From a virus: a DNA stretch of 64,000 bases. The DNA lies in the IMG/VR virus record IMGVR_UViG_3300008740_000351, positions 30,856-94,855 of that record. One strand, given 5' to 3'. How positions within the stretch are numbered: the stretch's first letter is position 1; each line of letters starts with the position of its first letter. The notes beneath the pieces were generated by a model. That model was not told where the DNA came from. It was given only the letters and a program-made list of their open reading frames with translations, and did no database searches. Below, piece by piece: positions 5,244 to 54,367 of the stretch. Made by a program: the position numbers and the translations under genes.

Positions 5244-5943
5244 GGTCGCCTCCGCTATAATGTTTTTCTTCTCGTTTTAATTTAATTGGCATATAAGTTT
5301 GTACAGGTTTTATATTATTAGCTTTCATATGAAATGCTAAAACGTGTTCAGGTCCGTATGTTTTGTCGTCGTTAATTACAAACCAATCTTTTTTATATCT
5401 AGGTATACAACTATAAAAATCACACATACGGTCATAGTCAAAACTTGTTGTAGCAAAGTAAACATCACTACATCTATATCTATGATTTTTATCAAACGTT
5501 TGATGAATGATATGAGCTTCGCCCATTTTCATTTGTGATATATGATATTTTTTTTCAACGTAATTATCGAATCTCATTCTTACACAAACATCATATTGTA
5601 AAGCAAAATCATGTTCGTATTGTTGTTTTAAATTACAAGCCATCATAACACCGTAAAATTGACTATGATAGTTTGGGTCAAATACTGCCCATTCGTTTTC
5701 AGTTTTAAATTCTATAGGATCTTCTATTAATATTTTTTTAAGTTTGTTAAGTTCTTGATTACTAATACTTTTTTCTTCGTCGTCTTTATTTTTATGTGCT
5801 ATAGCATTAGGGGCCGTTTTATTTGTCCATGTATGTACAAAGTAATCAACCTCGGATTCTTTATCAAACATTAACGGCCACGTTTTAATAGATTCTTCCC
5901 AGTGACCTCGTAATTGTCCACTAACACAAACAGCTATTTTCAT
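5230..5943 (-). CDS. Glycosyltransferase-like protein, SGQLR family, copy 2
   Basis: 237 residues, starting MKIAVCVSGQLRGHWEESIKTWP and carrying YDVCVRMRFDNYVEKK, the same two landmarks as the downstream copy. The two genes are neighbours with a 14-base overlap and look like an ancient tandem duplication. It lies directly downstream of sufD (4-base overlap), so the Suf genes and the glycan genes belong to one transcript. Acceptor and donor are unknown. Confidence 0.55.
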   Translation of the reverse strand: MKIAVCVSGQLRGHWEESIKTWPLMFDKESEVDYFVHTWTNKTAPNAIAHKNKDDEEKSISNQELNKLKKILIEDPIEFKTENEWAVFDPNYHSQFYGVMMACNLKQQYEHDFALQYDVCVRMRFDNYVEKKYHISQMKMGEAHIIHQTFDKNHRYRCSDVYFATTSFDYDRMCDFYSCIPRYKKDWFVINDDKTYGPEHVLAFHMKANNIKPVQTYMPIKLKREEKHYSGGDHEIT

Positions 5944-6518
5944 TGTTTGATTGTTCCTTCCATTTTATTTTTAATGTCTTGGGAAAATGCTTCTACGAGC
6001 ATATCAATAGAGTCCTCATATGATATTCCTCTGCTTTGAAGATAAAATAATTGTTCTTCATCTAATGCTCCAGTTGTACTGCTATGTGAACAAACAACAT
6101 TAGAATTTAAAATGTTTAATTCTGGTTTTGCGAATGCTTTAGATGTAGTATCTAATAAAAGATTTTTGTTAGACATATGACTTTCACAATTAGTAATATC
6201 TTTAGGAACAGAAATTAAACCCTCAAAAGAACTAACACTATTCTTGTTTATAAATCTAAAGTCTTGATTACACTTTGAATTATGACCATTGTGTACTACG
6301 TTAGTAACAACATCTGTTTTCTCATCTGTGTTTTTAAATATACCATACAACTCGCAAGATGAATTTGTATCTAAGTTTATATTAACAGTTGTCGCAACGC
6401 CAGAATAATTATAAAAAAATATAACCGCAATTGAGTCTTCTTTTAAGTTATAATTTAATACTGAATCTTCTTTTAAGTTTATAACTTTTTTATAATTATT
6501 TTGTATGTCCATAACCAC
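5940..6518 (-). CDS. sufD: SufD-like Fe-S scaffold protein, short form
   Basis: 192 residues, less than half the usual SufD length of about 420. The C-terminal part is clearly SufD/SufB family: AKPELNILNSNVVCSHSSTTGALDEEQLFYLQSRGI contains the Cys-Ser-His site (the conserved SufD Cys/His) and the LDEEQLFYL motif. The N-terminal half keeps only a few beta-helix strands. SufD pairs with SufB and SufC to build Fe-S clusters. The gene overlaps sufC by 23 bases; a second ATG at 6512 is possible. The shortening looks like loss of beta-helix rungs, not a frameshift, because the frame is clean. Confidence 0.75.
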   Translation of the reverse strand: MVMDIQNNYKKVINLKEDSVLNYNLKEDSIAVIFFYNYSGVATTVNINLDTNSSCELYGIFKNTDEKTDVVTNVVHNGHNSKCNQDFRFINKNSVSSFEGLISVPKDITNCESHMSNKNLLLDTTSKAFAKPELNILNSNVVCSHSSTTGALDEEQLFYLQSRGISYEDSIDMLVEAFSQDIKNKMEGTIKQ

Positions 6519-7230
6519 TCTTTTCTAATTCTAAAGCTAGTGCTTCACATCCTGTTCTATCTATTTTCCCATCCATTAAAACATGAACAAAGTCTGGTTT
6601 AATGTAATCTAGTAAACGTTGGTAATGTGTAATAATTAAAAAAGATCTATCTTTATTTTTTAAAGCATTTACACCGTCTGCTACGATTCTTAAAGCGTCT
6701 ATATCTAAACCAGAATCAGTCTCATCTAGAATTGCTAACGTAGGTTCTAAGATAGACATTTGTAATACTTCATTTTTCTTTTTTTCGCCCCCTGAGAATC
6801 CTACATTTAGTTCTCTATTAAGTATTGTTTTGTCAATGTTAAGGGTTTCTGCTGTTTGTTGTATTTTTGCAACAAATTCTAAAGGGTCTAATTCTGCTTC
6901 TTTTCTATGTCTACGAGTTTGATTTAGTGCTGATCTTAAAAAGTTACTTGTATTAACGCCAGGAACTTCAACAGGATATTGAAATGCTAAAAACAAACCT
7001 TCTTGAGCTCTTTCTTCTATTGGTAAAGTTAATAAATCTTTTCCTTGATAAGAAATTGTTCCATCAATATCATAACCAGTTCGCCCAGCTAACACATTAG
7101 CCAATGTACTTTTACCTGATCCGTTAGGACCCATTAAAGCATGGACTTCACCTTTTGGAATATTAAGGGTTAAGTCTTTTATTATTTCTTTACCATCTAT
7201 TGATACTTTTAAGTTTTCAATTTTTAACAT
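6496..7230 (-). CDS. sufC: SufC Fe-S assembly ATPase
   Basis: 244 residues, full length for SufC (about 250). Walker A GPNGSGKST at residues 34-42, Q-loop FQYPVEVPG, ABC signature FSGGEKKKNE near residue 145 (the K-K-N-E extension is diagnostic of SufC), Walker B LAILDETDSGLD and the H-loop ITHYQRLL. SufC is the ATPase of the SufBC2D complex that assembles Fe-S clusters in the cytoplasm. It overlaps sufE upstream and sufD downstream. All catalytic residues appear intact. Confidence 0.95.
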   Translation of the reverse strand: MLKIENLKVSIDGKEIIKDLTLNIPKGEVHALMGPNGSGKSTLANVLAGRTGYDIDGTISYQGKDLLTLPIEERAQEGLFLAFQYPVEVPGVNTSNFLRSALNQTRRHRKEAELDPLEFVAKIQQTAETLNIDKTILNRELNVGFSGGEKKKNEVLQMSILEPTLAILDETDSGLDIDALRIVADGVNALKNKDRSFLIITHYQRLLDYIKPDFVHVLMDGKIDRTGCEALALELEKSGYGHTK

Positions 7231-7621
7231 TCGGTATCCTTTTTATCATTATCTCGATCATTTGATAGAATCCAGTTTTTCTATTCATTGTTAGTAATTC
7301 GTCTAGTTTAATTTCTTCAAATTGTTCTATTGTGATTTTTTCTGCTCCTGGAGAATTAAAAATATCTATTAGTATGTAAGCATAACCTCCAGCTATCATG
7401 GCGTTGCTCCATGCTTTAAATTTACCATCTTCCCAATCAACAAATAAATCAAACTGGCAACGACTTACTCTGTTTTCTTCAATACGTTTTTCTTCACTTA
7501 AAGGATCGAAGTTTAATTTTGCCCCGAGCGAAATCAACCATCGGTAAACTTCTAAACTTTCAATTGCTCGTAACGTTTCAATGTTATTTTTATACTCTGT
7601 AATTTTATCTAAATAATTCAT
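7217..7621 (-). CDS. sufE: SufE-family sulfur acceptor protein
   Basis: 134 residues, normal SufE length. The segment YRWLISLGAKL, then EENRVSRCQ with Cys55, matches the SufE core, where the conserved Cys accepts persulfide from the desulfurase SufS. The WSNAMIAGGYAYILIDIF region matches the family's S-D-A-x-I-x-x-G-L helix. The usual V-x-G-C-Q-S is changed to V-S-R-C-Q-F. No SufS gene is in the window, so the host desulfurase would be the partner. It overlaps the VOC gene and sufC. Confidence 0.85.
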   Translation of the reverse strand: MNYLDKITEYKNNIETLRAIESLEVYRWLISLGAKLNFDPLSEEKRIEENRVSRCQFDLFVDWEDGKFKAWSNAMIAGGYAYILIDIFNSPGAEKITIEQFEEIKLDELLTMNRKTGFYQMIEIMIKRIPNVKN

Positions 7622-8033
7622 CTGGATTCGCCATTGTTTTAATTTCTAAACAGTTACCGTTAGGGTCTTCGATAAACATTGTTTCTTGTTGTCTACTCTC
7701 GCCTTCAAACCTAATGAAGGGAGGATCTAAAAATTCTATTCCGTTATCTATTATTCGCTGTTTTAAATTTTGAAATACATCATTGTCTAAGTGTACACCA
7801 AAATGGGGTACGGATACATTACCCATATCTACATTATGTCTTTCGCCTGTGCTCTTATCATCAGGATCAGATGCGTGTAGTGTTAATTCATTCCCCCAAA
7901 AATTAATATCTGCCCAGGCATCTGGGTATGTAAATTCTGCCATACCTCTTTCGCAACCTAGTATATCACAATAAAAGTTTATTGCTTTATCTAAATCTCC
8001 TGCCGGTATTGCTAAATGAAATCTATTTGACAT
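7605..8033 (-). CDS. VOC-superfamily (glyoxalase/dioxygenase-like) protein
   Basis: 142 residues with the VOC fold pattern of two beta-alpha-beta-beta-beta modules: FHLAIPAGDLDKAINFYCDILG at the start, PHFGVHLDN near residue 77 and FIEDPNGNCLEIKT at the end. His6, the His residues near the middle and Glu of CLEIK are at the usual metal-ligand places. VOC proteins include glyoxalase I, fosfomycin/bleomycin resistance and extradiol dioxygenases, so the reaction is not predictable. It lies between sufB and sufE with 1- and 17-base overlaps, an unusual place for this family. Confidence 0.85.
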   Translation of the reverse strand: MSNRFHLAIPAGDLDKAINFYCDILGCERGMAEFTYPDAWADINFWGNELTLHASDPDDKSTGERHNVDMGNVSVPHFGVHLDNDVFQNLKQRIIDNGIEFLDPPFIRFEGESRQQETMFIEDPNGNCLEIKTMANPDELFR

Positions 8034-9478
8034 TATCCTACGCTCCCCTCTAAACTAATTCCTACGAGTTGCTGTGCCTCCATAGCAAACTCCATTGGTA
8101 ATTTTTGTAATACTTCTTTACAAAACCCATTAACAATTAAACTAACAGCTTGTTCCTCTGGTATGCCTCGTTGTCTTATGTAAAATAATTGGTCATCACT
8201 AATTTTAGATGCTGACGCTTCGTGTTCTGATACTGAAGTCTTACAATTATTATCTATGTATGGAACAGTATGTGCTCCACACTTGTCGCCTATAAGTAAT
8301 GAATCGCATTGTGTATAATTGCGAGCCTTATCGGCCATCTTCTTAATACTAACTAATCCTCTGTAAGTGTTTTGTGAATGTCCACAGGAAATACCTTTTG
8401 AGATTATTCTACTTTTTGTATTCTTACCCATATGAATCATTTTAGTTCCTGTATCTGCTTGTTGGTAATTGTTTGTTACAGCAACAGAATAAAATTCACC
8501 CGAAGAGTTATCTCCTTGTAATATACAACTAGGATACTTCCACGTAACTGCTGAACCTGTTTCTACTTGGGTCCAACTTATTTTACTGTTACGTCCTCGG
8601 CAGGCTCCTCGTTTAGTGACTAAATTATATACGCCACCTTTTCCTTGATCGTCACCTGGGTACCAATTTTGAATTGTTGAATATTTTATCTCAGCATCAT
8701 CAAGAGCAACTAATTCTACATTGGCGGCGTGTAATTGATTCTCATCTCTCATTGGTGCTGTACATCCTTCTAAATAACTTACATAACTTCCTTTGTCAGC
8801 AATTATTAATGTCCTTTCAAATTGACCTGTTTTTTCAGCATTAATTCTAAAATATGTTGATAATTCCATAGGACATTTTACACCTGGTGGAATATACACA
8901 AATGAGCCATCTGTAAATACAGCAGAATTTAACGCCGCATAAAAATGATCACGTATTGGTATAACAGAACCAATGTATTTTTTAACTAATTCTGGGTGCT
9001 TCTGAATTGCTTCTGATATTGGACAAAATATTACTCCTGCTTTTTCTAATTCGTCTTGAAATGTTGTAGCAACTGACACACTATCAAATACAACATCTAC
9101 TGCCACACCTGCTAACTTTTTTTGTTCTGCTAATGGTATTCCTAATTTTTTGTATGTTTCTAATAGTTTAGGGTCTACTTCATCTAAACTCTTAGGACCA
9201 TCTGCCATACTCTTAGGTGCTGAATAATAATATAAATCTTGATAATCTATTTGAGGAAAATCAACGTTAGCCCAATTAGGCTCTTCCATTTTAATCCAAG
9301 CTCTATAGGCTTTAAGACGCCAATCTAACATCCATTGCGGTTCATTCTTTTTAGAAGATATTATTTTAACAATATCTTCGTTTATGCCTTTTGGAATTGT
9401 ATCTGATTCTATATCAGTTGACCAGCCGTGCTTATACTCGGAGAATTTATCAACTGTTTTTACTGTTTCTTTTTTCAT
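8033..9478 (-). CDS. sufB: SufB Fe-S cluster scaffold protein
   Basis: 481 residues, full length for SufB (about 480-495). Recognisable blocks include [44 protein letters not shown] (the conserved core Cys), the C-D-S[11 protein letters not shown] run and [22 protein letters not shown] with the conserved Glu-His. The C terminus ISLEGSVG is also typical. SufB is the main scaffold of SufBC2D. It is the first suf gene transcribed, with an ATGA overlap with the gene before it. Nothing suggests inactivation. Confidence 0.95.
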
Positions 9479-35119: not shown

Positions 35120-36262
35120 ATGTTTGATTTTAGGAAAATAGATATTTTTCAGGTGGAAACATCCACATATTGTAACGTTGCCTGTCCATTATGCCCACGA
35201 CATTTCATGGGAACTAGTGTTTTAAGGCCTACGTTACGTCAAAAAAATATATTAGCACCACAATGGAATAAATTTTTAAGTGATATGGACCATATTGCTA
35301 CTAAAGAACATCCAGTTAGTATGGTATTTTGTGGTTGTCATGGTGACCCTCCTATGACTCCGGATTGGGAAGAAATCATTATTAATACAGCAAAAAGAAA
35401 TTATATTATTGATGTAGAAACAAATGGTAGTATGAGAACACCCGAAAGTTGGGCTAGAGTAGGAAAAGCCTTTGCTGAAGCAGAAAAAAAGCAAGGTAGT
35501 CGGAAAGTTATAACATTTAGTATAGACGGTTTAGAAGATACAAACAAGTTATATCGTATAGGTATTAAGCACGAACGAACAATAGCTAATGCTAAAGCCT
35601 ATATAGATGCTGGCGGTAAAGCAAGATGGAAGATGATTGTATTTGAACATAACAAACATCAAGTCGAAGAAGCTCAACAAATAGCAAAAGATATGGGTTT
35701 TTGGCAATTTGACAAACACGTTTCAACTAGAAATTTTGAATATAACTATGCTGAACTTGAAAAGAAGAATGCTAAACAGTTAGCAATGAACACACCTGAG
35801 TCAATCACAATAGAAACAGATGTTAGAAAAGCGAGAAAAGGCGCAAATAACAGGTCATCTGAAACAACAAAAGAGTTAAACATTACAGATGAAGGTGCTA
35901 AAATTTATAGAGAAGTTGTCGAGTCATCAGACATATCACAAATAACTTGTGATTTTAAAGAACAACGTATGATGTATATCGATAGTGAAATGAATTTATG
36001 GCCCTGTAATCATATCGCGGCAACAAAACAAGAAGATATGACACACTATAATAAGTTAGAAAAAGAATATGGTGTGGGTTGGAATAATTTAGAAAAACAT
36101 ACAGCAGAAGAAATATTTTATCATGAGTACTTTCAAAGTATTTTACCTTTAACGTGGAAGGATCCGAGCCACAAGTTATGTACTTACGAATGTCGGAAAA
36201 TGTGTGGGGGTGGTTTACATAGTAAGGCTTGGGAAGCCTCTACAAACAGAGAAGAATTATAG
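35120..36262 (+). CDS. Radical SAM protein with C-terminal Cys-rich (SPASM/twitch-like) region
   Basis: 380 residues. Cys18, Cys22 and Cys25 form the C-x3-C-x2-C site (STYCNVACPLC) that binds the radical SAM [4Fe-4S] cluster. VFCGCHGDPP is the G-E-P-like motif. C-terminal cysteines in ITCDFKEQ, LWPCNH and CTYECRKMCGGG suggest an auxiliary cluster, as in SPASM/twitch enzymes that modify peptides or small molecules. The gene is alone on the plus strand among minus-strand baseplate genes, with its own late box upstream and a hairpin terminator downstream, like a mobile cassette. The substrate is unknown. Confidence 0.85.
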   Translation: MFDFRKIDIFQVETSTYCNVACPLCPRHFMGTSVLRPTLRQKNILAPQWNKFLSDMDHIATKEHPVSMVFCGCHGDPPMTPDWEEIIINTAKRNYIIDVETNGSMRTPESWARVGKAFAEAEKKQGSRKVITFSIDGLEDTNKLYRIGIKHERTIANAKAYIDAGGKARWKMIVFEHNKHQVEEAQQIAKDMGFWQFDKHVSTRNFEYNYAELEKKNAKQLAMNTPESITIETDVRKARKGANNRSSETTKELNITDEGAKIYREVVESSDISQITCDFKEQRMMYIDSEMNLWPCNHIAATKQEDMTHYNKLEKEYGVGWNNLEKHTAEEIFYHEYFQSILPLTWKDPSHKLCTYECRKMCGGGLHSKAWEASTNREEL

Positions 36263-45341: not shown

Positions 45342-46355
45342 ATGGCAAATTTATTTAAAAAGGCATTAGCCTTTACAGACATTCATTTTGGTAATAAGTC
45401 CAATTCATCGTTGTTTAATGATGACTGTATAGACTTCGTTAATTGGGCTATTGAACAAGGTAAAGAACAAGACTGTGAGACTTGTATATTCCTCGGCGAT
45501 TGGCACCATCACAGGGCGGCAATTAATGTTGCTACACTCAATTATAGTATTAAAGCCATCGATGCTTTAAGTAAAGCATTCGAAAAAATGATTTTCATTC
45601 CAGGAAATCATGATGAATATTATCGTGATAAACGAGATTTTAATTCAATTGCTTGGATTAAAAATTATTCAAATATAAAAATTTACAACGACGTTACTGT
45701 AGATGGTGACGTGGCGATCGTACCATGGCTAGTAGGTGACGAACATAAAAGTATTAAAAAATTAAAAGCCAAATATATGTTTGGACACCTAGAGCTTCCT
45801 CACTTTTATATGAATGCCATGGTACAAATGCCCGATGTTGGTGAACTACATGACAAAGACTTTGGTGGTGTCGAACACGCCTTTAGTGGACATTTTCATA
45901 AAAGACAAACAAGAGGAAACATTACATATATTGGTAATGCTTTCCCACACAATTACTCAGATGCTTGGGATGACGAGCGTGGTATAATGACTTTAGAATG
46001 GGGTAAAGAACCCAAGTATACAGCATGGCCAGATGCTCCAAAGTATAAAACATTAAAGTTAGGACAACTGTTAGATAAACCTGAAGAGTATTTGTTACCA
46101 AAAACGTATGCTAGAGTTATGCTTGATATTGAAATTAGTTATGAAGAAGCTAATTTTATAAGAGAAAACTTTATGGAACAATATCCTATACGTGAATTGA
46201 GTTTAATACAACAAAAGTTAGAAGATACAAATGTTGATGAGACAGTAGAAATTAATTTTGAATCAGTAGACAGTATTGTTTATAGTCAACTTGATGCTGT
46301 ACAAAGTGATTTTTATGATAAAGATCTTTTAAGAGAAATTTACAGGGACCTTTAA
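45342..46355 (+). CDS. 47: Recombination endonuclease subunit gp47 (SbcD/Mre11-like)
   Basis: 337 residues, the length of T4 gp47. Metallophosphoesterase motifs in order: AFTDIHFGN, FLGDWHHHR, IPGNHDEYY, FGHLELPH and FSGHFHKRQ, giving all metal ligands of the Mre11 family. With gp46 it resects DNA ends for phage recombination-dependent replication. It is the first gene after the consensus promoter at 45292-45321, and its stop overlaps the gp46 start by 1 base. Confidence 0.95.
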   Translation: MANLFKKALAFTDIHFGNKSNSSLFNDDCIDFVNWAIEQGKEQDCETCIFLGDWHHHRAAINVATLNYSIKAIDALSKAFEKMIFIPGNHDEYYRDKRDFNSIAWIKNYSNIKIYNDVTVDGDVAIVPWLVGDEHKSIKKLKAKYMFGHLELPHFYMNAMVQMPDVGELHDKDFGGVEHAFSGHFHKRQTRGNITYIGNAFPHNYSDAWDDERGIMTLEWGKEPKYTAWPDAPKYKTLKLGQLLDKPEEYLLPKTYARVMLDIEISYEEANFIRENFMEQYPIRELSLIQQKLEDTNVDETVEINFESVDSIVYSQLDAVQSDFYDKDLLREIYRDL

Positions 46356-48118
46356 TGTTTAACTTAAACAGTATTACAGTCAAGAACTTTATGAGTGTGG
46401 GTAACAGCACACAGGCAATAGATTTCAATAGAGATGATTTAACACTTGTACTCGGAGAGAACTTAGACTTAGGTGGTGATGATACAGGTGCTAGAAATGG
46501 TACTGGTAAAACAACAATCATTAATGCTTTAAGTTATGCTTTATACGGACAAGCACTTACTAAGATTAGAGTTGACAATTTAATTAATAAAACAAACGCC
46601 AAGAATATGCTTGTTTGTTTAGAATTTGAAAAGAATGATAAGAAGTATAAAATTGAACGTGGGCGTAGACCTAACTTATTAAAATTTTATATTGATGAGC
46701 AAGAGCAAGAAGCAGAAGATAATGCTCAAGGTGATAGTAGAGAAACACAACATGAAATAAATCGTTTACTTGAAATGGGTCACGAAATGTTTAAACACGT
46801 TGTGGCACTGAACACTTACACGGAACCTTTTTTAGCACTTAAAAATAATGACCAACGTGCTATTATTGAGCAACTATTAGGTATTACTTTATTAAGTGAA
46901 AAATCTGAGAAACTTAAAGAACAGATGAAGAAAAATAGAGATGATGCTAAAGAAGAAGAATATAGAATACAAGGTGTTGAACAAGCAAATGCTCATATTA
47001 AAGAACAAATAGAAAATCTTAAACGTAGAAGTAAGTTATGGGAAGATAGTAAAGACGAGCAAGTACAAAAATTAGAAAAAGCGATTGCTGATTTAGGTGA
47101 TGTAGACATTGATGCTGAATTAAAACAACATGAGCAATTAAATGATTTTATGACTCTTAAAAACGAACAATCGTTATTAGAGACCGAGGTAGCTAGTAGT
47201 GAACGAGCAGTAGATAGACTTATTAAAGAATCAGAAAAAATTGCTGACAGTCTAAAACTTGTTGAAAATCATACTTGTGATAGTTGTGGTCAAGACATTA
47301 AACATTTAAAAGATTATAAAGAAAAATTAAAAAATCTTCAGAAAGAACAAAAAGATATAACAAAAGAATTAGAAAATGCAAATAATAGAGTTGCTGAACA
47401 AATTTTATTAAGAGTTGATATTGGTAAACGACCAGAAACTTTTTATGAAAGTGCCACAGAAGCACACAATCATAAAAGTACGTTAACAACTCTTGAAGAT
47501 CAATTGACAAATAAACAAGCAGAAGAAAATACCTATAATGAACAAATAACTGAAATGGAAGAGTCTGGTCTTCAAGAGATCTCGTTTGATGTATTAGAAC
47601 AGTTAAATAACGTAAAAGAACACCAAGAATTTTTATACAAGTTACTAACAAGTAAAGATAGTTTTGTTCGTAAACGTATTATTGAACAGAATTTAGCATT
47701 CTTAAATAAACGATTAACATACTATCTTGACAAGATTGGATTACCACATAAAGTGATATTCCAAAATGATTTATCAATTGAGATCACCGAGTTAGGTCGC
47801 GATCTTGACTTTGATAACTTATCCAGAGGTGAGAGGAATAGATTGATATTAGCATTAAGTTGGTCTTTCCGCGATGTTTGGGAAAATCTATACCAACCTA
47901 TAAACTTGTTGTTTATCGACGAGTTGATTGACTCAGGCATGGACACCTCTGGAGTTGAAAGCTCTCTTGCTGTTTTGAAAAAGATATCAAGAGAAAGAAA
48001 GAAAAGCATATGGCTTATCTCACATAGAGATGAACTTGCTGGTAGAGTAAACAACGTGCTTACCGTTACTAAAGAAAACGGTTTTACCAGTTACAATAAT
48101 GACGTTAACGTTAACTAA
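46355..48118 (+). CDS. 46: Recombination endonuclease subunit gp46 (SbcC/Rad50-like)
   Basis: 587 residues. Walker A is GTGKTTIINALSYALYG near residue 50. Two long coiled coils flank a zinc hook, CDSCGQ (Cys near residues 307 and 310), which dimerises the arms. The C-terminal part has the ABC signature DNLSRGERNRL, Walker B LLFIDELIDSG and the ISHRDEL switch. With gp47 it forms the nuclease complex that processes DNA ends. It is intact and typical of T4 gp46 (560 aa). Confidence 0.95.
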   Translation: MFNLNSITVKNFMSVGNSTQAIDFNRDDLTLVLGENLDLGGDDTGARNGTGKTTIINALSYALYGQALTKIRVDNLINKTNAKNMLVCLEFEKNDKKYKIERGRRPNLLKFYIDEQEQEAEDNAQGDSRETQHEINRLLEMGHEMFKHVVALNTYTEPFLALKNNDQRAIIEQLLGITLLSEKSEKLKEQMKKNRDDAKEEEYRIQGVEQANAHIKEQIENLKRRSKLWEDSKDEQVQKLEKAIADLGDVDIDAELKQHEQLNDFMTLKNEQSLLETEVASSERAVDRLIKESEKIADSLKLVENHTCDSCGQDIKHLKDYKEKLKNLQKEQKDITKELENANNRVAEQILLRVDIGKRPETFYESATEAHNHKSTLTTLEDQLTNKQAEENTYNEQITEMEESGLQEISFDVLEQLNNVKEHQEFLYKLLTSKDSFVRKRIIEQNLAFLNKRLTYYLDKIGLPHKVIFQNDLSIEITELGRDLDFDNLSRGERNRLILALSWSFRDVWENLYQPINLLFIDELIDSGMDTSGVESSLAVLKKISRERKKSIWLISHRDELAGRVNNVLTVTKENGFTSYNNDVNVN

Positions 48119-48129
48119 AGGAGAAAGAA

Positions 48130-49155
48130 ATGACTAGCAAACACATTAAACGTTTCTTAATTATAGTCAGTATGCTGTTTATATCTATGGTTTCAACAGC
48201 CGGGTTATTTACAGCACAAGCAAAAGCTGACGAAATTAAAATAGCAGAACTCAATTGGCCATCGGGAACGATATTGGCTCATATTGATACTGTAATACTT
48301 AAAATAGGCTATGGACATAAAGTAGAAATAGTTCCAGGTGGAACTGAAGCTACTATTACGTCAATGTTAGCCACAGAGTCACCTAATATTTTTAGTGAAG
48401 CTTGGACTTCATTTTTAGGTGCTGGATATGACGAAGCTGTAGCTGAAGGTAAATTACTTACAGCAAGTATAGGAGTTATTGAAGGTGCTGGTGAAGGATT
48501 TTATGTTCCTGATTATGTGTTAGAAGCACATCCGGAATTAACTTCTTTTGAAAAGGTACTTGAACATCCAGAACTATTTCCACATCCAGAAGATGCGACA
48601 AAAGGCGGAATTGCTATTTGTCCTGACGGCTGGGCTTGTCAAATGCAACATCAAAATTTATTCGAAGCATTTGATATGGAGGCAAAAGGCTGGAAACTTA
48701 TTAACCCTGGATCTGGTGTAGGTTTAGATGCCGCTTGGACTGGTGCTGTAACTAAAAAGGAAAACTTTTTCGGTTATTACTGGTCACCAACATTATTAGT
48801 AGGTAAATTAGGATTGTCAAAACTTCCTTTTGAAACTGAATTCGCTGGACAAGAAAATTGGGAGTGTATAACATTACCTGATGATGAATGTATTGGACCA
48901 AAGCCATCAGCATATCCAGAAACAATTATTGCCACAGTAGTTACATCGGGTCTTCATCCAGATGTAATGGTTTATCTATCTAAAAGGCAAATGCCAGGTG
49001 ATGTATTAAACACTTTATTAATATATTCTAATGATAATCAAGCATCACCAACTGACGTTGCTATAGAGTTTCTTAAATCACATAAAGAAACTTGGTCTAA
49101 ATGGGTAACGCCGGAGGCGGCTGAAAAGCTAGGCTTGAACGTAACACTTGATTAA
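48130..49155 (+). CDS. proX: ProX/OpuAC-type betaine ABC transporter binding protein
   Basis: 341 residues with a clear signal peptide (basic start, hydrophobic FLIIVSMLFISMVSTAGLF, cleavage likely after AQAKA). The mature part is OpuAC-like: IKIAELNWPSG, VEIVPGGTEATITSMLA, ICPDGWACQMQHQN and GYYWSPTLLVG. Such proteins bind glycine betaine, proline betaine or DMSP with a Trp-rich box, and Trp residues are at W53-, W160s- and W200-like positions. It follows gp46 by 11 bases with AAAGGAG before the ATG. Phage genes for this function are unusual. The ligand is inferred. Confidence 0.9.
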   Translation: MTSKHIKRFLIIVSMLFISMVSTAGLFTAQAKADEIKIAELNWPSGTILAHIDTVILKIGYGHKVEIVPGGTEATITSMLATESPNIFSEAWTSFLGAGYDEAVAEGKLLTASIGVIEGAGEGFYVPDYVLEAHPELTSFEKVLEHPELFPHPEDATKGGIAICPDGWACQMQHQNLFEAFDMEAKGWKLINPGSGVGLDAAWTGAVTKKENFFGYYWSPTLLVGKLGLSKLPFETEFAGQENWECITLPDDECIGPKPSAYPETIIATVVTSGLHPDVMVYLSKRQMPGDVLNTLLIYSNDNQASPTDVAIEFLKSHKETWSKWVTPEAAEKLGLNVTLD

Positions 49156-49160
49156 TAGCT

Positions 49161-50027
49161 ATGAGTAATTTTCCATCATTGGAAAAGAGTAACATAGTAG
49201 CGATTAAGAAATTTATTGACAGTACGTTTAGAGAATTTGCTAGTACGTGGGGAGAAAGTTTCCAAGACTTTCTTTCCCCACTCCTCTATTTTCTTATTTG
49301 GTTTGAAAAATTATTATTAGCAACGCCATATTATGTATTCTTATTAGTAGTAGGATTATTAATATGGGTTCTTACTAAAAACTGGAAAATAATTTTAGGA
49401 TCATTGACTGCCTTTATAGCTATAGGTTTAGTTGGTATGTGGGATGATACCATGAGAACTTTAGCTATAGTTTCTGTATCTACATTTATTTGTGTTACAT
49501 TTGGTATTCCTCTCGGAATACTAATGGCAAAAAAAGATAAAGCACAATCTATAATTTTACCTATGCTTGATTTCATGCAAACTATTCCTAGTTTTGTATA
49601 TCTAATTCCTGTTATAATGTTATTTGGACTTGGCAAAGTTCCTGGCTTAATTGCTATATGTTTTTATGCTATGCCACCAGTAATTAGATTTACAAATATC
49701 GGTATTCGAGAAATTAATAAAGATTTAATAGAAACAGCAGAAGCATTAGGATTACGAGCTAAACATATTTTAGCTCTTGTTGAATTACCGTTAGCAAGAG
49801 CAACAATTTTTGGTGGTATTAACCAAACAATAATGATGGCACTGGCAATGGTAGTAATAGCATCAATGATTGGTGTTAGAGGGTTAGGGTCACAAGTTAT
49901 GAACGCTGTTGGAAATCAATTTTTAGGATTAGGTGTTATAAGTGGATTGTCAATAGTTGCTTTAGCAATTATTATTGATAGAGTTGTTCAAGCATACAAT
50001 AAACGTGATGATCGTTGGAAGAAATAA
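49161..50027 (+). CDS. proW: ProW/OpuAB-type ABC transporter permease
   Basis: 288 residues with about six membrane helices. The cytoplasmic EAA loop is intact: DLIETAEALGLRAKHILALVELPLARATIFGGINQ. Helices such as TLAIVSVSTFICVTFGIPLGILMA and IILPMLDFMQTIPSFVYLIPVIMLFG match the glycine betaine permease family. The EAA loop is where the ATPase binds. No ATPase gene (ProV) is in the window, so a host ProV would be needed. Starts 5 bases after proX, no spacer for a separate promoter. Confidence 0.9.
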   Translation: MSNFPSLEKSNIVAIKKFIDSTFREFASTWGESFQDFLSPLLYFLIWFEKLLLATPYYVFLLVVGLLIWVLTKNWKIILGSLTAFIAIGLVGMWDDTMRTLAIVSVSTFICVTFGIPLGILMAKKDKAQSIILPMLDFMQTIPSFVYLIPVIMLFGLGKVPGLIAICFYAMPPVIRFTNIGIREINKDLIETAEALGLRAKHILALVELPLARATIFGGINQTIMMALAMVVIASMIGVRGLGSQVMNAVGNQFLGLGVISGLSIVALAIIIDRVVQAYNKRDDRWKK

Positions 50028-50060: not shown

Positions 50061-50873
50061 ATGACTGTACAAGTATTAGAATATACAGATTCAGAATTAA
50101 AATCAGAAATTCAACAAGTATTAAAAGATGGATATACATTTCATCATGAACAAAATTTAACACAACCTCAACTAGTTGACTATTGTAGACGTATAGGAAA
50201 TACAGACGACGATACAATGGGACAATTTCATTATAACCCAAAAGAAAATCCAGACATAGCAAGAGTAATGCCAGGTGGATTGTTTGGAGAAACAGAACTA
50301 CAATGGCACGCCAATGGCACAATACATCATTTAGGTGAGTTTAAAGAAATACTAATTGCTTTATATTGTGTAGGAGAATGTCCTGATACTGTTTTTAGTT
50401 TATTAAACAATAGAGATGCTTTTAATGAGTTACCTGAAAAAGAAAAAGACTATTGGCGTTCTATTGATATACAGTTAAACAATTTTAGTAGTTATGGTAT
50501 ATATGGGTCAAAAGAAGAATCAAATGTTGATCCTAGTTTAGATGATTACGTTATGCCAATTCATCACGACGGTGATGACTGTATGCCAGCAGTAAATAAA
50601 CATCCTGTAGATGGGCAAGAGTTTTTATATTGGCAACCACCATTGTTAGAAAAAGCATGGCAAAACGGTGAGCCAGTAAACGTAGATATTGTAAAAGAAA
50701 AATATAAAAAAACATTAGACAGATCAATTTATCAAAAACATTTTGTATTTAAAAAAGGTGATTTATTATTAATGGATCAATTGTATACTATACACAGACG
50801 TTCACCTGTTGTAAACAAAAGTAGAGAACTTTGGCGTGTAGCATTAGATTACACAAATATTTTTAAGGAATAA
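50061..50873 (+). CDS. TauD/TfdA-family Fe(II)/2-oxoglutarate dioxygenase-like protein
   Basis: 270 residues from the ATG at 50061 with AAAGGGTG upstream (an in-frame GTG at 50052 is less likely). The fold landmarks are GGLFGETELQWHANGTIHHL, HPVDGQEFLYWQPP, KKGDLLLMDQLYTIHRRSPV and LWRVALDY. His83 and His245 and Arg259 fit the facial triad and 2-oxoglutarate site, but the usual carboxylate of H-x-D is Asn85. That could mean altered chemistry. It starts a four-gene tailoring cassette with the ligase, nitroreductase and methyltransferase that follow. Confidence 0.8.
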   Translation: MTVQVLEYTDSELKSEIQQVLKDGYTFHHEQNLTQPQLVDYCRRIGNTDDDTMGQFHYNPKENPDIARVMPGGLFGETELQWHANGTIHHLGEFKEILIALYCVGECPDTVFSLLNNRDAFNELPEKEKDYWRSIDIQLNNFSSYGIYGSKEESNVDPSLDDYVMPIHHDGDDCMPAVNKHPVDGQEFLYWQPPLLEKAWQNGEPVNVDIVKEKYKKTLDRSIYQKHFVFKKGDLLLMDQLYTIHRRSPVVNKSRELWRVALDYTNIFKE

Positions 50874-50874
50874 T

Positions 50875-52290
50875 ATGTTAAAACAAACACAAGGACCTCT
50901 CAGTGAAGATGATATTTTTTTAAGTAATTCTACTGAACAAATTACTTGGGGAGAGTTACACGATAATTTAGATGCTAAAATTAAAAGACTTAAAGAGCAT
51001 GGTATAGGACCACACGTTGTTTTTGTAATAGCAGAAGATCAAGTTACAATAGATGATTACTTATGGATACTTGCTAGTATTAAAAACGGTGGATCAGCTA
51101 CACAGGCTGACGCTAGACAATCTAAGATGGAGCGTGAAGGATTGATTAAAGGTTGTAAAGCAACTTGTATTATACGTTCTAATAAAATAACAATGTTAAG
51201 TGATCCAGCTGAAACAGGACCTACTATATTACATCCTAAAGAAATATATAGAGGTATGACAAGCGGAACTACAGTTAAAGAGTTTTTTGAAATGTATCCT
51301 TTCTTTTGGGATTACGAAGATCATGAAGAAGCTATTGTAGATGGGCAGACATTATTAGGATGTACAGCACAGGCATCTACTAATCATTTATTTGCTATAG
51401 CACCTGAATTTACAAAAGATAAACGACCAAGAATTCTTTGTACAGCAGGATTTACTGCTACTTATAATCCTTATAACTTGTTAAGAATATACTTAATAGG
51501 TGGTAGTATACATTTTTTAAATTGGGGAGATAATATACCTGGGGAGATAGTAAAAGCAAAACCTAATTGTTGTATATCATATCCTAATGCTATTAAAAAG
51601 ATAGTTGATGAATGTCCTGATGATTTCAATTGGCCTATAGATTACTGGGAATGTTCTGGAGGACATACACCAGAAGTAGTTCTCAAAAGTATTATAAAGA
51701 AATTTAAGTTTAAAGCAATTTACAATATGATGGCAAGTACAGAAGCAGATTGCCATTCAGTTGCTGTTTATAGACCAGGTGATCCAATAAAAAACTTTTA
51801 TGGATTTACAAAACATCTTTATAACGGGGAGTTAAAACTTGACAAAGAAGGCGTACTTTGGTACAAGTACGGAACACTAGATTGGCAAACAGATGGTGAT
51901 AAGTTTAGAGATGAAAATGGTACATGGTATTATTCTGGTAGAGTGTTTGATGATGTTATCTTTATGAAAAGTGGTATAAAAATTTATACAGGATTAGTAG
52001 AAGCATTGGCACTCGAAGTTCCTGGTGTTGAAAATGTTGCTAGTTGCGAACAAGATGAACTTCATTACTTAATATATACAGGAACAGCTAATGCTAATGA
52101 TGTAGCTAAACACTTTACTGATAATGCTCAAAAGGCTAAACGACCACACGATATATATCATGTAACTGAACATTTATATTTTTCTGGTCCAAATAAATTT
52201 CAAAGAAGTAAATTGCCTGCCATTGTTAAAAATAGTTTTCCTCCTCATATTATTTCTAAGGTTAATGTAAAGGATTATTCAGAAGTATGA
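50875..52290 (+). CDS. AMP-forming ligase of the ANL superfamily
   Basis: 471 residues. Adenylation motifs are present in order: RGMTSGTTVKEF (P-loop-like A3) near residue 130, YNMMASTEADC (A5) near residue 285, TDGDKFRDENGTWYYSGRVFDDVIFMKSGIKIY (A7-A8) near residue 340, and PNKFQRSKL with the A10 Lys near the end. ANL enzymes activate a carboxylate as acyl-AMP for transfer to CoA, a carrier or an amine. No carrier protein is encoded nearby. It follows the dioxygenase by 1 base. The substrate is unknown. Confidence 0.85.
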   Translation: MLKQTQGPLSEDDIFLSNSTEQITWGELHDNLDAKIKRLKEHGIGPHVVFVIAEDQVTIDDYLWILASIKNGGSATQADARQSKMEREGLIKGCKATCIIRSNKITMLSDPAETGPTILHPKEIYRGMTSGTTVKEFFEMYPFFWDYEDHEEAIVDGQTLLGCTAQASTNHLFAIAPEFTKDKRPRILCTAGFTATYNPYNLLRIYLIGGSIHFLNWGDNIPGEIVKAKPNCCISYPNAIKKIVDECPDDFNWPIDYWECSGGHTPEVVLKSIIKKFKFKAIYNMMASTEADCHSVAVYRPGDPIKNFYGFTKHLYNGELKLDKEGVLWYKYGTLDWQTDGDKFRDENGTWYYSGRVFDDVIFMKSGIKIYTGLVEALALEVPGVENVASCEQDELHYLIYTGTANANDVAKHFTDNAQKAKRPHDIYHVTEHLYFSGPNKFQRSKLPAIVKNSFPPHIISKVNVKDYSEV

Positions 52291-52976
52291 TAGTTAGTGA
52301 TGCTTTAGCAACTCGTAAGTCAACAAGAGCTTTTTTAAATAAAGAAGTTTCTATTGATACTATAAACAAAATATTAGAGCAAGCCAAACAAGCACCAAGT
52401 GGTGATAATCATCAACCTTGGCAAGTAGCTGTACTTACAGGTACGTCAAAAAATAATTTATGTAACAAATTAGAAGAAGCATTTAGTTCTGGTATAACAC
52501 CTGTTATGGATTACGAGTATTATCCATTTGATAAGTTTAGTGAAAAAGATGCTGAATGGTTTGGAGAGTATAAGCAACGAAGAAAAGAATGTGGATTAGC
52601 TTTATATAATCAACTAGGTATTACTAGAGAAATGACAGAACGTAAAAATTTGTTATATGCTAAAAATTATAGAGGGTTTGATGCTCCTGTTATGTTATTA
52701 TTTTTTATTGACAGAGCATTAGGCAAAGGTTCTTATGTAGACTATGGTATGTTTATACAATCGATTATGCTGTCTGCTGTTGAACATGGCCTGGCAACCT
52801 GTCCACAGGGGTCATTAGGAGAGTATGCTGATATAGTAAGACAAGAATTACCTGAGTATAAAGAAAAAATTGTATTGTGTGGTATGAGTATTGGATACGA
52901 AGATACTAAAAACATAATTAACAAATATCGAACAGCTAGAGAAAACCTAAATGACATGGTAAAATATTATGACTGA
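52287..52976 (+). CDS. Nitroreductase-family flavoprotein
   Basis: 229 residues. The N terminus ALATRKSTRAFLNKEVSIDTINKILEQAKQAPSGDNHQPW is the FMN-binding R-x-S-x-R-x-F ... A-P-S-x-x-N-x-Q-P-W signature; the C-terminal GLATCPQGSLGEY and IVLCGMSIGYEDT match the second FMN-binding region. These enzymes use NAD(P)H to reduce nitro, quinone, enone or oxidised intermediates, and some act in azoline oxidation of peptides. It overlaps the ligase stop by 4 bases and the methyltransferase by 8. Confidence 0.9.
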   Translation: MIVSDALATRKSTRAFLNKEVSIDTINKILEQAKQAPSGDNHQPWQVAVLTGTSKNNLCNKLEEAFSSGITPVMDYEYYPFDKFSEKDAEWFGEYKQRRKECGLALYNQLGITREMTERKNLLYAKNYRGFDAPVMLLFFIDRALGKGSYVDYGMFIQSIMLSAVEHGLATCPQGSLGEYADIVRQELPEYKEKIVLCGMSIGYEDTKNIINKYRTARENLNDMVKYYD

Positions 52977-53559
52977 TTATTGGTTAGACGAAATTTATAA
53001 AAAAAGTAATAGCGAATTGTATGATGGTTGGGATAACTATCATGACGAAGTTATAAATGAACGAGGATGGGTATGTCATACTATTGCTTCTAATTGGATT
53101 ATAGATAATTTTCTAGAAGGAACAGAAGTAGGAGACATTGGTTGTGGAAACGGTCAAGTAGGACTTGGATTAATAAATCACAAATACTTAATTGATGGTT
53201 ACGATTTAAATCAACCTATGCTTAATAGATTTGTGGCAGGTAATTATAGAACTACTAAGATACACGATATAACTAAAGCACCATTACCACAAAAATATAA
53301 ATGCTTAACAGCAATTGGCGTACTAACATTTGGACACGTTGATGCTAGTGCTTCAAAGCATATAGCTGATAGTTTAACTGACGACGGGTTACTATATTGT
53401 AGTATGTGTATAACTCCAAAAGATTGGATAACAGAAGGTGGTTGGGAAAAACAGACTGATTTAAAAGTTGTTAGTATTGAAAAAGTACATAGTATAACCA
53501 CACCAGAAGGTGAAAAAAAGTATCATAACATGGTAGTTTGGGAGAAAACGAAGAAATAG
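52969..53559 (+). CDS. SAM-dependent methyltransferase
   Basis: 196 residues with the motif I sequence VGDIGCGNGQVGLGLI near residue 55, an acidic strand end IDGYDLNQPML (motif II Asp) and LTAIGVLTFGHV. It is a class I methyltransferase of the small-molecule type; N-terminal KKSNSELYDGWDNYHDEVI resembles the S-x-x-Y-D-x-W-A start of some quinone/metabolite methyltransferases. Last gene of the four-gene cassette. Substrate unknown. Confidence 0.85.
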   Translation: MTDYWLDEIYKKSNSELYDGWDNYHDEVINERGWVCHTIASNWIIDNFLEGTEVGDIGCGNGQVGLGLINHKYLIDGYDLNQPMLNRFVAGNYRTTKIHDITKAPLPQKYKCLTAIGVLTFGHVDASASKHIADSLTDDGLLYCSMCITPKDWITEGGWEKQTDLKVVSIEKVHSITTPEGEKKYHNMVVWEKTKK

Positions 53560-53854: not shown

Positions 53855-54367
53855 ATGCCAAGCCCACAAAAAGCAAAAGGATCAGGTTGGGAGCGAGATG
53901 TCGCAAGATTCTTGTCCGGACTATACAATGAAAGTTTTATAAGAGCTCCTGGTTCCGGTGCTTATGTGGGCGGGTCTAATAAAGCTAGAATGGAAATACT
54001 TCACGAAGGCCAAGTAAGAGCCTTCAAAGGAGACATTGTTCCTGGACAAAGTTTTCCTAAACTAAATGCGGAATGTAAATTTTATAAAGCATTTCCGTTT
54101 CACAGACTATTACAACCTGAACCGATTCCAATGTTAGAAGAGTGGATATCTCAACTAATGGATGTAGCAGTACCAGACGACTTTAATATATTAATAATGA
54201 AATTCAATCAAGTAGGCAAATTCATAGCCATAGAAACTAGGCACAATTCAAAATCAAAAAACTATATAGACTACTGGTCTAACACTACAGGCTCTAACTG
54301 GCGCATATCAAATTTTGAGGAATTTTTCACAAGAAATTCAGATTTGGTTAAAACATTGTGTGCCTAA
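53855..54367 (+). CDS. PD-(D/E)XK nuclease, Holliday-junction-resolvase-like
   Basis: 170 residues. KGSGWERDVARFLSGLY near the start and RAFKGDIVPGQSFPKLNAECKFYK at residues 55-75 give the E ... G-D ... E-x-K arrangement of PD-(D/E)XK nucleases; RAPGSGAYVGGSN between them resembles archaeal Hjc-type resolvases. It would cut branched DNA or process ends during recombination. Location after gp46/gp47 in the same operon supports this. Metal ligands appear intact. Confidence 0.75.
   Translation: MPSPQKAKGSGWERDVARFLSGLYNESFIRAPGSGAYVGGSNKARMEILHEGQVRAFKGDIVPGQSFPKLNAECKFYKAFPFHRLLQPEPIPMLEEWISQLMDVAVPDDFNILIMKFNQVGKFIAIETRHNSKSKNYIDYWSNTTGSNWRISNFEEFFTRNSDLVKTLCA

Follow-up and report, generated by a model that had tools for sequence, protein, structure and literature searches.

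DmpXWV has been described as the ATP-binding cassette (ABC) transporter for dimethylsulfoniopropionate (DMSP) of Roseobacters and SAR11, and the DMSP pocket of its binding protein RnDmpX consists of Trp35, Thr64, Trp84, Glu113, Trp152, Ala153, Tyr200 and Trp202 (PMC10030565). A glycine-betaine one-carbon locus of SAR11 combines BHMT, DMGDH and an Opu/Pro transporter (PMC3160333), and work on SUP05 viruses names tctA and a 2-oxoglutarate (2OG) oxygenase as separate genes (PMC4164917, PMC6359870). No account of a cassette such as the one reported here was among the papers listed in searches of open-licence PMC for phage betaine, DMSP, TauD or TctA genes, and term searches of PMC9599517 and PMC11360552 met neither betaine nor nitroreductase. 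The locus lies in a stretch of 64,000 nucleotides (the window), positions 30,856 to 94,855 of the IMG/VR virus record IMGVR_UViG_3300008740_000351 (G000). It consists of four adjacent enzyme genes, encoding a TauD-fold oxygenase, an AMP-forming ligase, a nitroreductase-family protein and a small methyltransferase, directly behind the genes of a ProX-type binding protein and a ProW-type permease (Table 1).

Transporter and enzymes are read here as a virus-borne auxiliary pathway that would import a methylated osmolyte of the DMSP or betaine type, activate its carboxylate and process it, and we give this reading a probability of about one half. The reading builds on observed gene identities, linkage, a modular slot, pocket residues and the composition of variant loci. 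The four co-directional genes of the original prediction, with a 1-base gap and overlaps of 4-8 bases, were confirmed by ORF (open reading frame) coordinates and Pfam: the spacings are +1 base (TauD/ligase), -4 (ligase/nitroreductase) and -8 (nitroreductase/methyltransferase), all four genes are on the + strand, and the TauD, AMP-binding and Nitroreductase scores all exceed the curated cut-offs. These metabolic genes sit within phage genes, with a gp46-like gene upstream and a PDDEXK endonuclease gene downstream, and are therefore considered as a viral auxiliary metabolic cassette; tail/baseplate-type ORFs were seen by eye on the same contig.

Ligase loci were grouped at 95% DNA identity, and neighbours were counted in the group representatives, plus other loci where the representative did not have the gene. 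The ligase was found at 23 loci in IMG/VR, one of them on a contig nearly identical to the window, which gives 10 groups with the window included; it was unmatched in 50,697 phage records, a set from which records very near the window may be absent. Methyltransferase and TauD genes each accompany the ligase in 9 of the 10 groups (exceptions L012 and the L015 group, respectively) and the nitroreductase in 8 (exceptions L012 and L017-L022). All four occur together in 7 groups, window included, so that the outcome which would have undone the original prediction, four genes never found together elsewhere, is not the one observed. A second TauD copy is present in 5 groups, and in the L007 group a radical SAM/SPASM-like gene (SAM, S-adenosylmethionine) stands between ligase and nitroreductase. 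When viral_contigs was scanned with peptide patterns, the confirmed relatives of the nitroreductase (15 of 15) and all but one of those of the methyltransferase (20 of 21) came from ligase contigs. Such scans overlook diverged copies, for example the methyltransferase of L232 (43% identical, directly before ProX-ProW and without a ligase), which was reached outside the scan. The gene set is thus a real, conserved viral set, whose association goes beyond chance and recurs in nine further ligase groups. Within the L017-L022 group TauD is present in 4 of 6 members; L017 and L022 have none between ligase and methyltransferase, whereas the near-identical L018-L021 do, which is a recent loss or gain.

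ProX-ProW is found on the ligase contig in 8 of the 10 groups, within the stretch retrieved in seven and, for the L014 group, just upstream on the same contig (L221); it lies upstream of the cassette in six groups and downstream in two. The transporter-cassette link is strong and not obligatory, each also occurring apart. The slot itself could be delimited from three related phages, the window, L012 and L218, which share the gp46, ProX, ProW and PDDEXK genes. Between ProW and PDDEXK, L218 has only a conserved stretch and no cassette genes, L012 has a ligase, a 406-aa M24 gene and a TauD gene, and the window has its TauD, ligase, nitroreductase and methyltransferase genes. Downstream, the three can be aligned over a shared flank that starts about 20 bases behind the last stop codon and runs up to the beginning of the PDDEXK gene (alignment A8). 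Because these phages share their flanks but differ in what the slot contains, the cassette is an exchangeable insert behind the transporter pair, and a transporter-only slot (L218) can be set against two filled slots (window and L012) as a testable model in closely related phages. On the L014/L221 contig, an ORF that looks SGNH-like by eye stands after ProW and before the first TauD gene.

The nearest solved structure to the window ProX is PDB 7yle (E 7.5e-48), named in PDB as a glycine betaine/proline-binding protein; we take it to be RnDmpX, because each published pocket residue has the same number in the 7yle chain. On this alignment, 8 of 8 DMSP-pocket residues of RnDmpX are kept in the window ProX. 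Fifteen full-length phage ProX were compared, nine from ligase contigs (eight distinct ones and L221) and six transporter-only, leaving out the fragment L228; the aromatic cage and its Glu (the four Trp, Tyr200 and Glu113) are kept in 15 of 15. Ala153 is kept only by the window, the other 14 having Ser or Thr; the 57 distinct cellular ProX sampled also vary at this place (Gly, Asn or Ser). In a ProW tree built without the transporter-only loci, the nine phage rows group together in a single clade (100/100), which does not fall within SAR11 and has a long stem (1.54 changes per column). For the ATPase gene ProV, the window gave only weak matches (best E 0.002, to a SufC-like ORF), and nothing was found at E<=1e-5 in the L001-L101 stretches; several SAR11 ProX-ProW loci likewise show, by eye, no adjacent ProV.

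The variant slot of L012 bears on the kind of solute. For its M24 protein the DddP model gives 278 bits and the next family 67, and PDB 4rzy is matched at 7.9e-70. The stretches FDTD, DISRT, HGVG and two with Glu, which we take to be metal-site stretches, are kept in the alignment, as are a Tyr and an Asp that are altered in chains 4s00 and 4s01, presumably DddP mutants. A creatinase identity was tried and rejected, since no creatinase-named entry is among the 35 PDB matches listed and the DddP model is far ahead.

The ligase is a divergent member of the AMP-forming (ANL) family. In an 11-row alignment (A1), TSGTT (T129-T133), ASTEAD (A287-D292), T-DGD (T339-D342), GR-FDD (G355-R356) and K441 are invariant; we assume that they correspond to the P-loop-like, TE, TGD-like, hinge and C-terminal Lys motifs of ANL enzymes, and on that assignment all of these are present. 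A profile search gave no PDB match at E<=0.001, a single-sequence search two weak ones (0.018 and 0.028), and the AlphaFold model made from the 11 rows has a pLDDT (predicted local distance difference test) of 49, useless for reading the pocket. The idea of an amino-acid adenylation domain or a nonribosomal peptide synthetase (NRPS) found no support: in the alignment, read by eye, no FDxS-like Asp was seen at the stretch corresponding to A4, the fold model being too poor to confirm this, and the seven window genes scanned gave no match to a carrier protein or an NRPS. The nitroreductase reaches 85.2 bits (Pfam cut-off 23.5), with profile matches to PDB 3gr3 (3.7e-53), 7dp0 (2.1e-42) and 2wzv (NfnB, 2e-29). 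For the methyltransferase, several SAM-methyltransferase Pfam models matched below cut-off (best 2.3e-04, 22.2 bits vs 30), and the glycine-rich SAM motif DIGCGNGQ was recognised by eye. Separate ‘mini-ligases’ of about 231-248 aa were also seen (L005:15698-16408, L014:6107-6808, L015:13537-14235, L018:6227-6922 and L003:2784-3530); they comprise only the middle of an AMP-forming ligase (positions 170-377 and 170-341 of the Pfam AMP-binding model in the two tested), lie repeatedly near the cassette and, by eye, near two other small conserved ORFs, and are possibly a separate activating module.

The oxygenase is predicted to adopt a double-stranded beta-helix fold (model pLDDT 81), which superposes on 3pvj with a VIA-align Z of 23.6 (rmsd 2.8 Å, 246 residues aligned). 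The facial triad departs from the canonical HxD/E...H and reads HxN...H, with Asn at the position of the metal-binding carboxylate. Among 94 distinct phage sequences, copy A at ligase loci has HxN in 10 of 11 cases and copy B has HxD in 5 of 5, and the other phage loci have HxN in 74, HxD in 3 and one gapped row. HxN may reflect an unusual iron site, a changed chemistry or lost activity. The second His is kept in the window protein, together with a conserved Arg at what we take to be the place of the 2OG-binding Arg.

Cellular relatives of ProX were searched in genome_contigs; the best 80 of 212 found belong to Rhodobacteraceae, Granulosicoccaceae, Pelagibacteraceae and others. One Amylibacter locus has ProX-ProW-ProV, two short ORFs and then a true DddP (858 bits vs a cut-off of 600). 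In several SAR11 loci, ProX-ProW stands opposite a block of GbcA-like Rieske, BHMT-like, DMGDH-like and methyltransferase genes and also adjoins MTHFR-like and DmdA/GcvT-like genes, and in some SAR11 betaine loci a DddP-like M24 gene (353 bits) adjoins the methyltransferase; other ProX-ProW loci of SAR11, e.g. L124, have different neighbours. Between the methyltransferase and DMGDH-like genes of two SAR11 betaine loci sit an ORF that weakly matches the arginine-deiminase fold and looks by eye like an amidinotransferase (L122:1174-2283), and an agmatinase-family gene (L211:5355-6344), which hint at guanidino-compound metabolism in this host locus.

In the pathway that we infer, each chemical step is read from family membership, and the substrate, the order of steps, the host, the product, the use of a host ProV and the benefit are likewise conjectural. 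Phage ProX and ProW, probably with a host ProV ATPase, would take up a methylated cation of the DMSP or glycine-betaine type. The ligase would activate the carboxylate of the solute to an acyl-AMP and then probably to a CoA thioester, one or two Fe/2OG oxygenases could hydroxylate it or demethylate it oxidatively, the nitroreductase would perform a flavin mononucleotide (FMN) redox step and the methyltransferase would move a methyl group. In the L012 variant, a DddP-like enzyme in place of nitroreductase and methyltransferase could cleave DMSP. The likely gain during infection of a SAR11-like host would be glycine, reduced sulfur, C1 units or energy, because SAR11 HTCC1062 requires glycine or precursors plus reduced sulfur, and host proVWX is lowered by two pelagiphages (PMC12753301). 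The low G+C would fit a SAR11 host but does not establish one. These data suggest that related marine bacterial viruses redirect the infected cell's use of abundant ocean solutes (DMSP, betaine); the flow of carbon, nitrogen and sulfur in the sea is changed directly by infection if phages have both an importer and a multi-step route of their own for these compounds.

Several observations weigh against this reading. The place of Thr64 is Ile in 11 of the 15 phage ProX and Thr in 4 (window, L231, L232 and L235), the window being the only ligase contig with Thr (Thr72, codon 48343-48345), whereas Thr is found in 57 of the 57 cellular ProX. The methylated-cation cage is thus retained and the carboxylate contact is changed in most phage ProX; with Ile for the carboxylate-binding Thr the solute may therefore differ, a possible virus-specific change. 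The L012 M24 score of 278 bits is below the DddP family cut-off of 600, so that the protein is not called DddP, and the gene is found in one contig only, which is not the window. ProX-ProW is not present within about 8 kb in the L005/L006 and L017-L022 groups, whose contigs are also missing from the ProW scan. Conversely, a ligase is missing from the stretch retrieved around 10 viral ProW loci: L218 and nine further loci with ProX-ProW (or ProW at a contig end; some near copies, several cut by contig ends), the nine also showing no nitroreductase or TauD there. A TctA transporter lies within about 8 kb of the ligase in 5 of 10 groups, and another imported acid is therefore possible. TauD relatives elsewhere in phages are unlinked to the other cassette genes: 131 relatives were found in viral_contigs, the best 80 were kept (76 loci), and the 58 loci that are not on ligase contigs, many of them near copies, gave no ligase, nitroreductase, methyltransferase, ProX, ProW or M24 gene at E<=1e-5.

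The host side adds further points of the same kind. The ligase was unmatched in 147 Pelagibacterales genomes, among which there was no positive control (the query did match its own record), and in 12 genomes reached through ProX loci; no relative was confirmed in genome_contigs, where the use of only two short patterns makes the negative weak evidence. Distant relatives of the phage methyltransferase occur in 57 of the 147 genomes, and in only 10 of the 57 does the match lie within about 7 kb of ProX (tables compared by eye; the genomes are probably related and not independent), the best-scoring matches lying away from it. Among the first 12 genomes, picked via ProX loci, 8 have a match and 6 of the 8 are near ProX, so that this proximity is moderate, not strong, support. 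Nitroreductase relatives occur in 39 of the 147 genomes and in 1 of the 12; in the one locus inspected (L207) the relative is not beside betaine genes and therefore gives no hint of function. TauD matches, found in 75 of 147 genomes, are weak (best 2.7e-14), and in the inspected L203, L204 and L210 they do not stand beside betaine genes.

The link to the adjoining betaine transporter, which had been suggested from the sequence, is thus favoured by the linkage in 8 of 10 groups, the ProX pocket residues and the DddP-like variant, and qualified by transporter and cassette also occurring apart. The small pathway proposed in the same place holds as far as gene mix and co-occurrence go; a common substrate for the four enzymes, and tailoring rather than degradation of anything, would be further assumptions. 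A wider idea, which we hold only tentatively, is that T4-like marine phages evolved a pathway of their own, with a ligase found only in viruses in the searches made here, an oxygenase family with an Asn iron site, a viral osmolyte importer and a chemistry unknown in hosts, carried as an interchangeable module in a fixed slot.

Instead of a catabolic route, the cassette might make a small specialised molecule (a modified osmolyte, an antimetabolite or a signal) from an imported or host acid. The mix of activating, oxidising, reducing and methylating enzymes would suit such a product, as would the radical SAM/SPASM-like gene within the L007 cassette and the radical SAM genes upstream in L003, L005 and L018. 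The nearest TauD folds by Foldseek E-value include SfaA, ScoE and Rv0097, presumably enzymes of isonitrile pathways; SfaA and ScoE are only about 17% identical, with VIA-align Z of 22.2 and 22.1, no higher than TauD (23.6) or AAD-1 (22.8). As the seven genes scanned gave no carrier protein or NRPS and the DddP-like variant points to breakdown, we regard a biosynthetic role as unlikely. Less probable again is that the transporter and the four genes have nothing to do with each other and met as cargo in a hypervariable slot, as L218 (transporter without cassette in the same slot), the L005/L006 and L017-L022 groups (cassette without a nearby transporter) and the frequent TctA neighbours might be taken to indicate; 8 of 10 ligase groups combine both, and since the transporter is upstream in six and downstream in two, the association was kept or regained after rearrangement. 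The least credible alternative is decoration of sugars or peptides of tail fibres or envelope by the oxygenase and its partners, which draws on a TauD relative of phage Mosig that is clustered with oxygenase-like genes and genes of other enzymes adjoining tail-fibre genes, on many viral loci where the TauD family is represented several times among successive unannotated ORFs, and on sugar-nucleotide- and glycosyltransferase-like ORFs seen by eye at 1-14 kb of the window, but leaves the transporter linkage unexplained and is opposed by the 0 of 58 such TauD loci with ligase, nitroreductase, methyltransferase or transporter and by a slot lying, in window, L012 and L218, between gp46 and PDDEXK genes.

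Table 1. Coordinates (positions in the window) of the transporter-cassette locus and its boundary genes
Feature	Position	Strand	Evidence
gp46-like recombination endonuclease subunit, upstream boundary gene	46355..48118	+	47% identity over 99% of protein
ProX-type substrate-binding protein, DmpX-like	48130..49155	+	Pfam OpuAC 9.1e-39; best PDB match 7yle
ProW-type permease	49161..50027	+	Pfam 8.9e-27; ProW NF008196 249 bits, below cut-off 439
TauD-fold Fe(II)/2OG oxygenase, HxN...H instead of HxD...H	50052 (GTG; alternative start ATG 50061)..50873	+	Pfam TauD 5.4e-12
AMP-forming (ANL) carboxylate ligase, divergent	50875..52290	+	Pfam AMP-binding 2.4e-08; motif-like stretches
Nitroreductase-family oxidoreductase (FMN by family)	52287..52976	+	Pfam Nitroreductase 7.9e-24
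SAM-dependent small methyltransferase	52969..53559	+	sub-cut-off Pfam matches; motif by eye
Conserved flank, downstream edge of slot, common to L218 and L012	53560..53854	+	alignment A8
PDDEXK phage endonuclease, downstream boundary gene	53855..54367	+	Pfam PF24608 6.1e-20

The gp46-like protein matches annotated recombination endonuclease subunits, the nearest being from Pseudomonas jumbo phages, and a gp47-like gene (read by eye) stands by it, also upstream of ProX. Neither promoter-like sites (36 vs 30.3 in shuffles, sd 5.5) nor terminator-like sites (4 vs 2.3, sd 1.7) gave a signal. The TctA genes (tripartite tricarboxylate transporter) are at L003:3-1100, L007:9198-10637, L011:12199-13692, L013:12484-13944 and L018:12397-13842, called by Pfam in L007 and L018 and by BLAST in the other three; an ORF of about 350-377 aa follows in four of the five loci, with no Pfam match in the one tested. 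Elsewhere in the phage, the window carries a Suf set (5940-9478) made of a SufBD-core fragment (5940-6518), a SufC-like ABC ATPase (6496-7230; assigned to Suf by the genes around it), a SufE-like gene (7217-7621) and a SufB-like gene (8033-9478). A radical SAM gene (35120-36262) is on the + strand, surrounded by structural genes of the - strand, and BLAST related about nine ORFs at about 10.7-28.0 kb of G000 (L212, L213) to radical SAM references.

Compared with described systems, the Pelagibacter phage Mosig EXVC030M has a TauD gene (34% identical) followed by a methylase gene, but its pair is in a tail-fibre-side cluster, with no ProX/ProW annotated in 19 kb around and the ligase unmatched in the phage collection. 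The SAR11 betaine one-carbon locus has ProX-ProW in common with the window, and some genomes add genes related to the phage methyltransferase and the L012 M24 gene; on the other hand, BLAST of the flanks searched gave nothing related to the ligase, nitroreductase or TauD of the phage, and the phage cassette is without BHMT, DMGDH, GbcA and GcvT-like genes. With the TauD, AAD-1 and ScoE oxygenases the window protein shares the fold, the second His and the conserved Arg, but it is 12-20% identical in the rows shown and has Asn at the metal-binding carboxylate position. DddP, an M24-fold DMSP lyase, is the best family model for the L012 protein, which keeps the Tyr and Asp; that protein is about 34% identical to an Amylibacter DddP and stays at 278 bits vs 600. 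DmpXWV is homologous in ProX and ProW, and the window ProX keeps all eight pocket residues of RnDmpX; in contrast, no ATPase gene was found at the phage loci, the phage ProW form their own long-stem clade, and the pocket Thr and Ala are mostly replaced. Because the defining features of each are lacking or only predicted, the set is classed neither as a DmpXWV, nor as a DddP, nor as a TauD system, and is considered as viral auxiliary metabolism.

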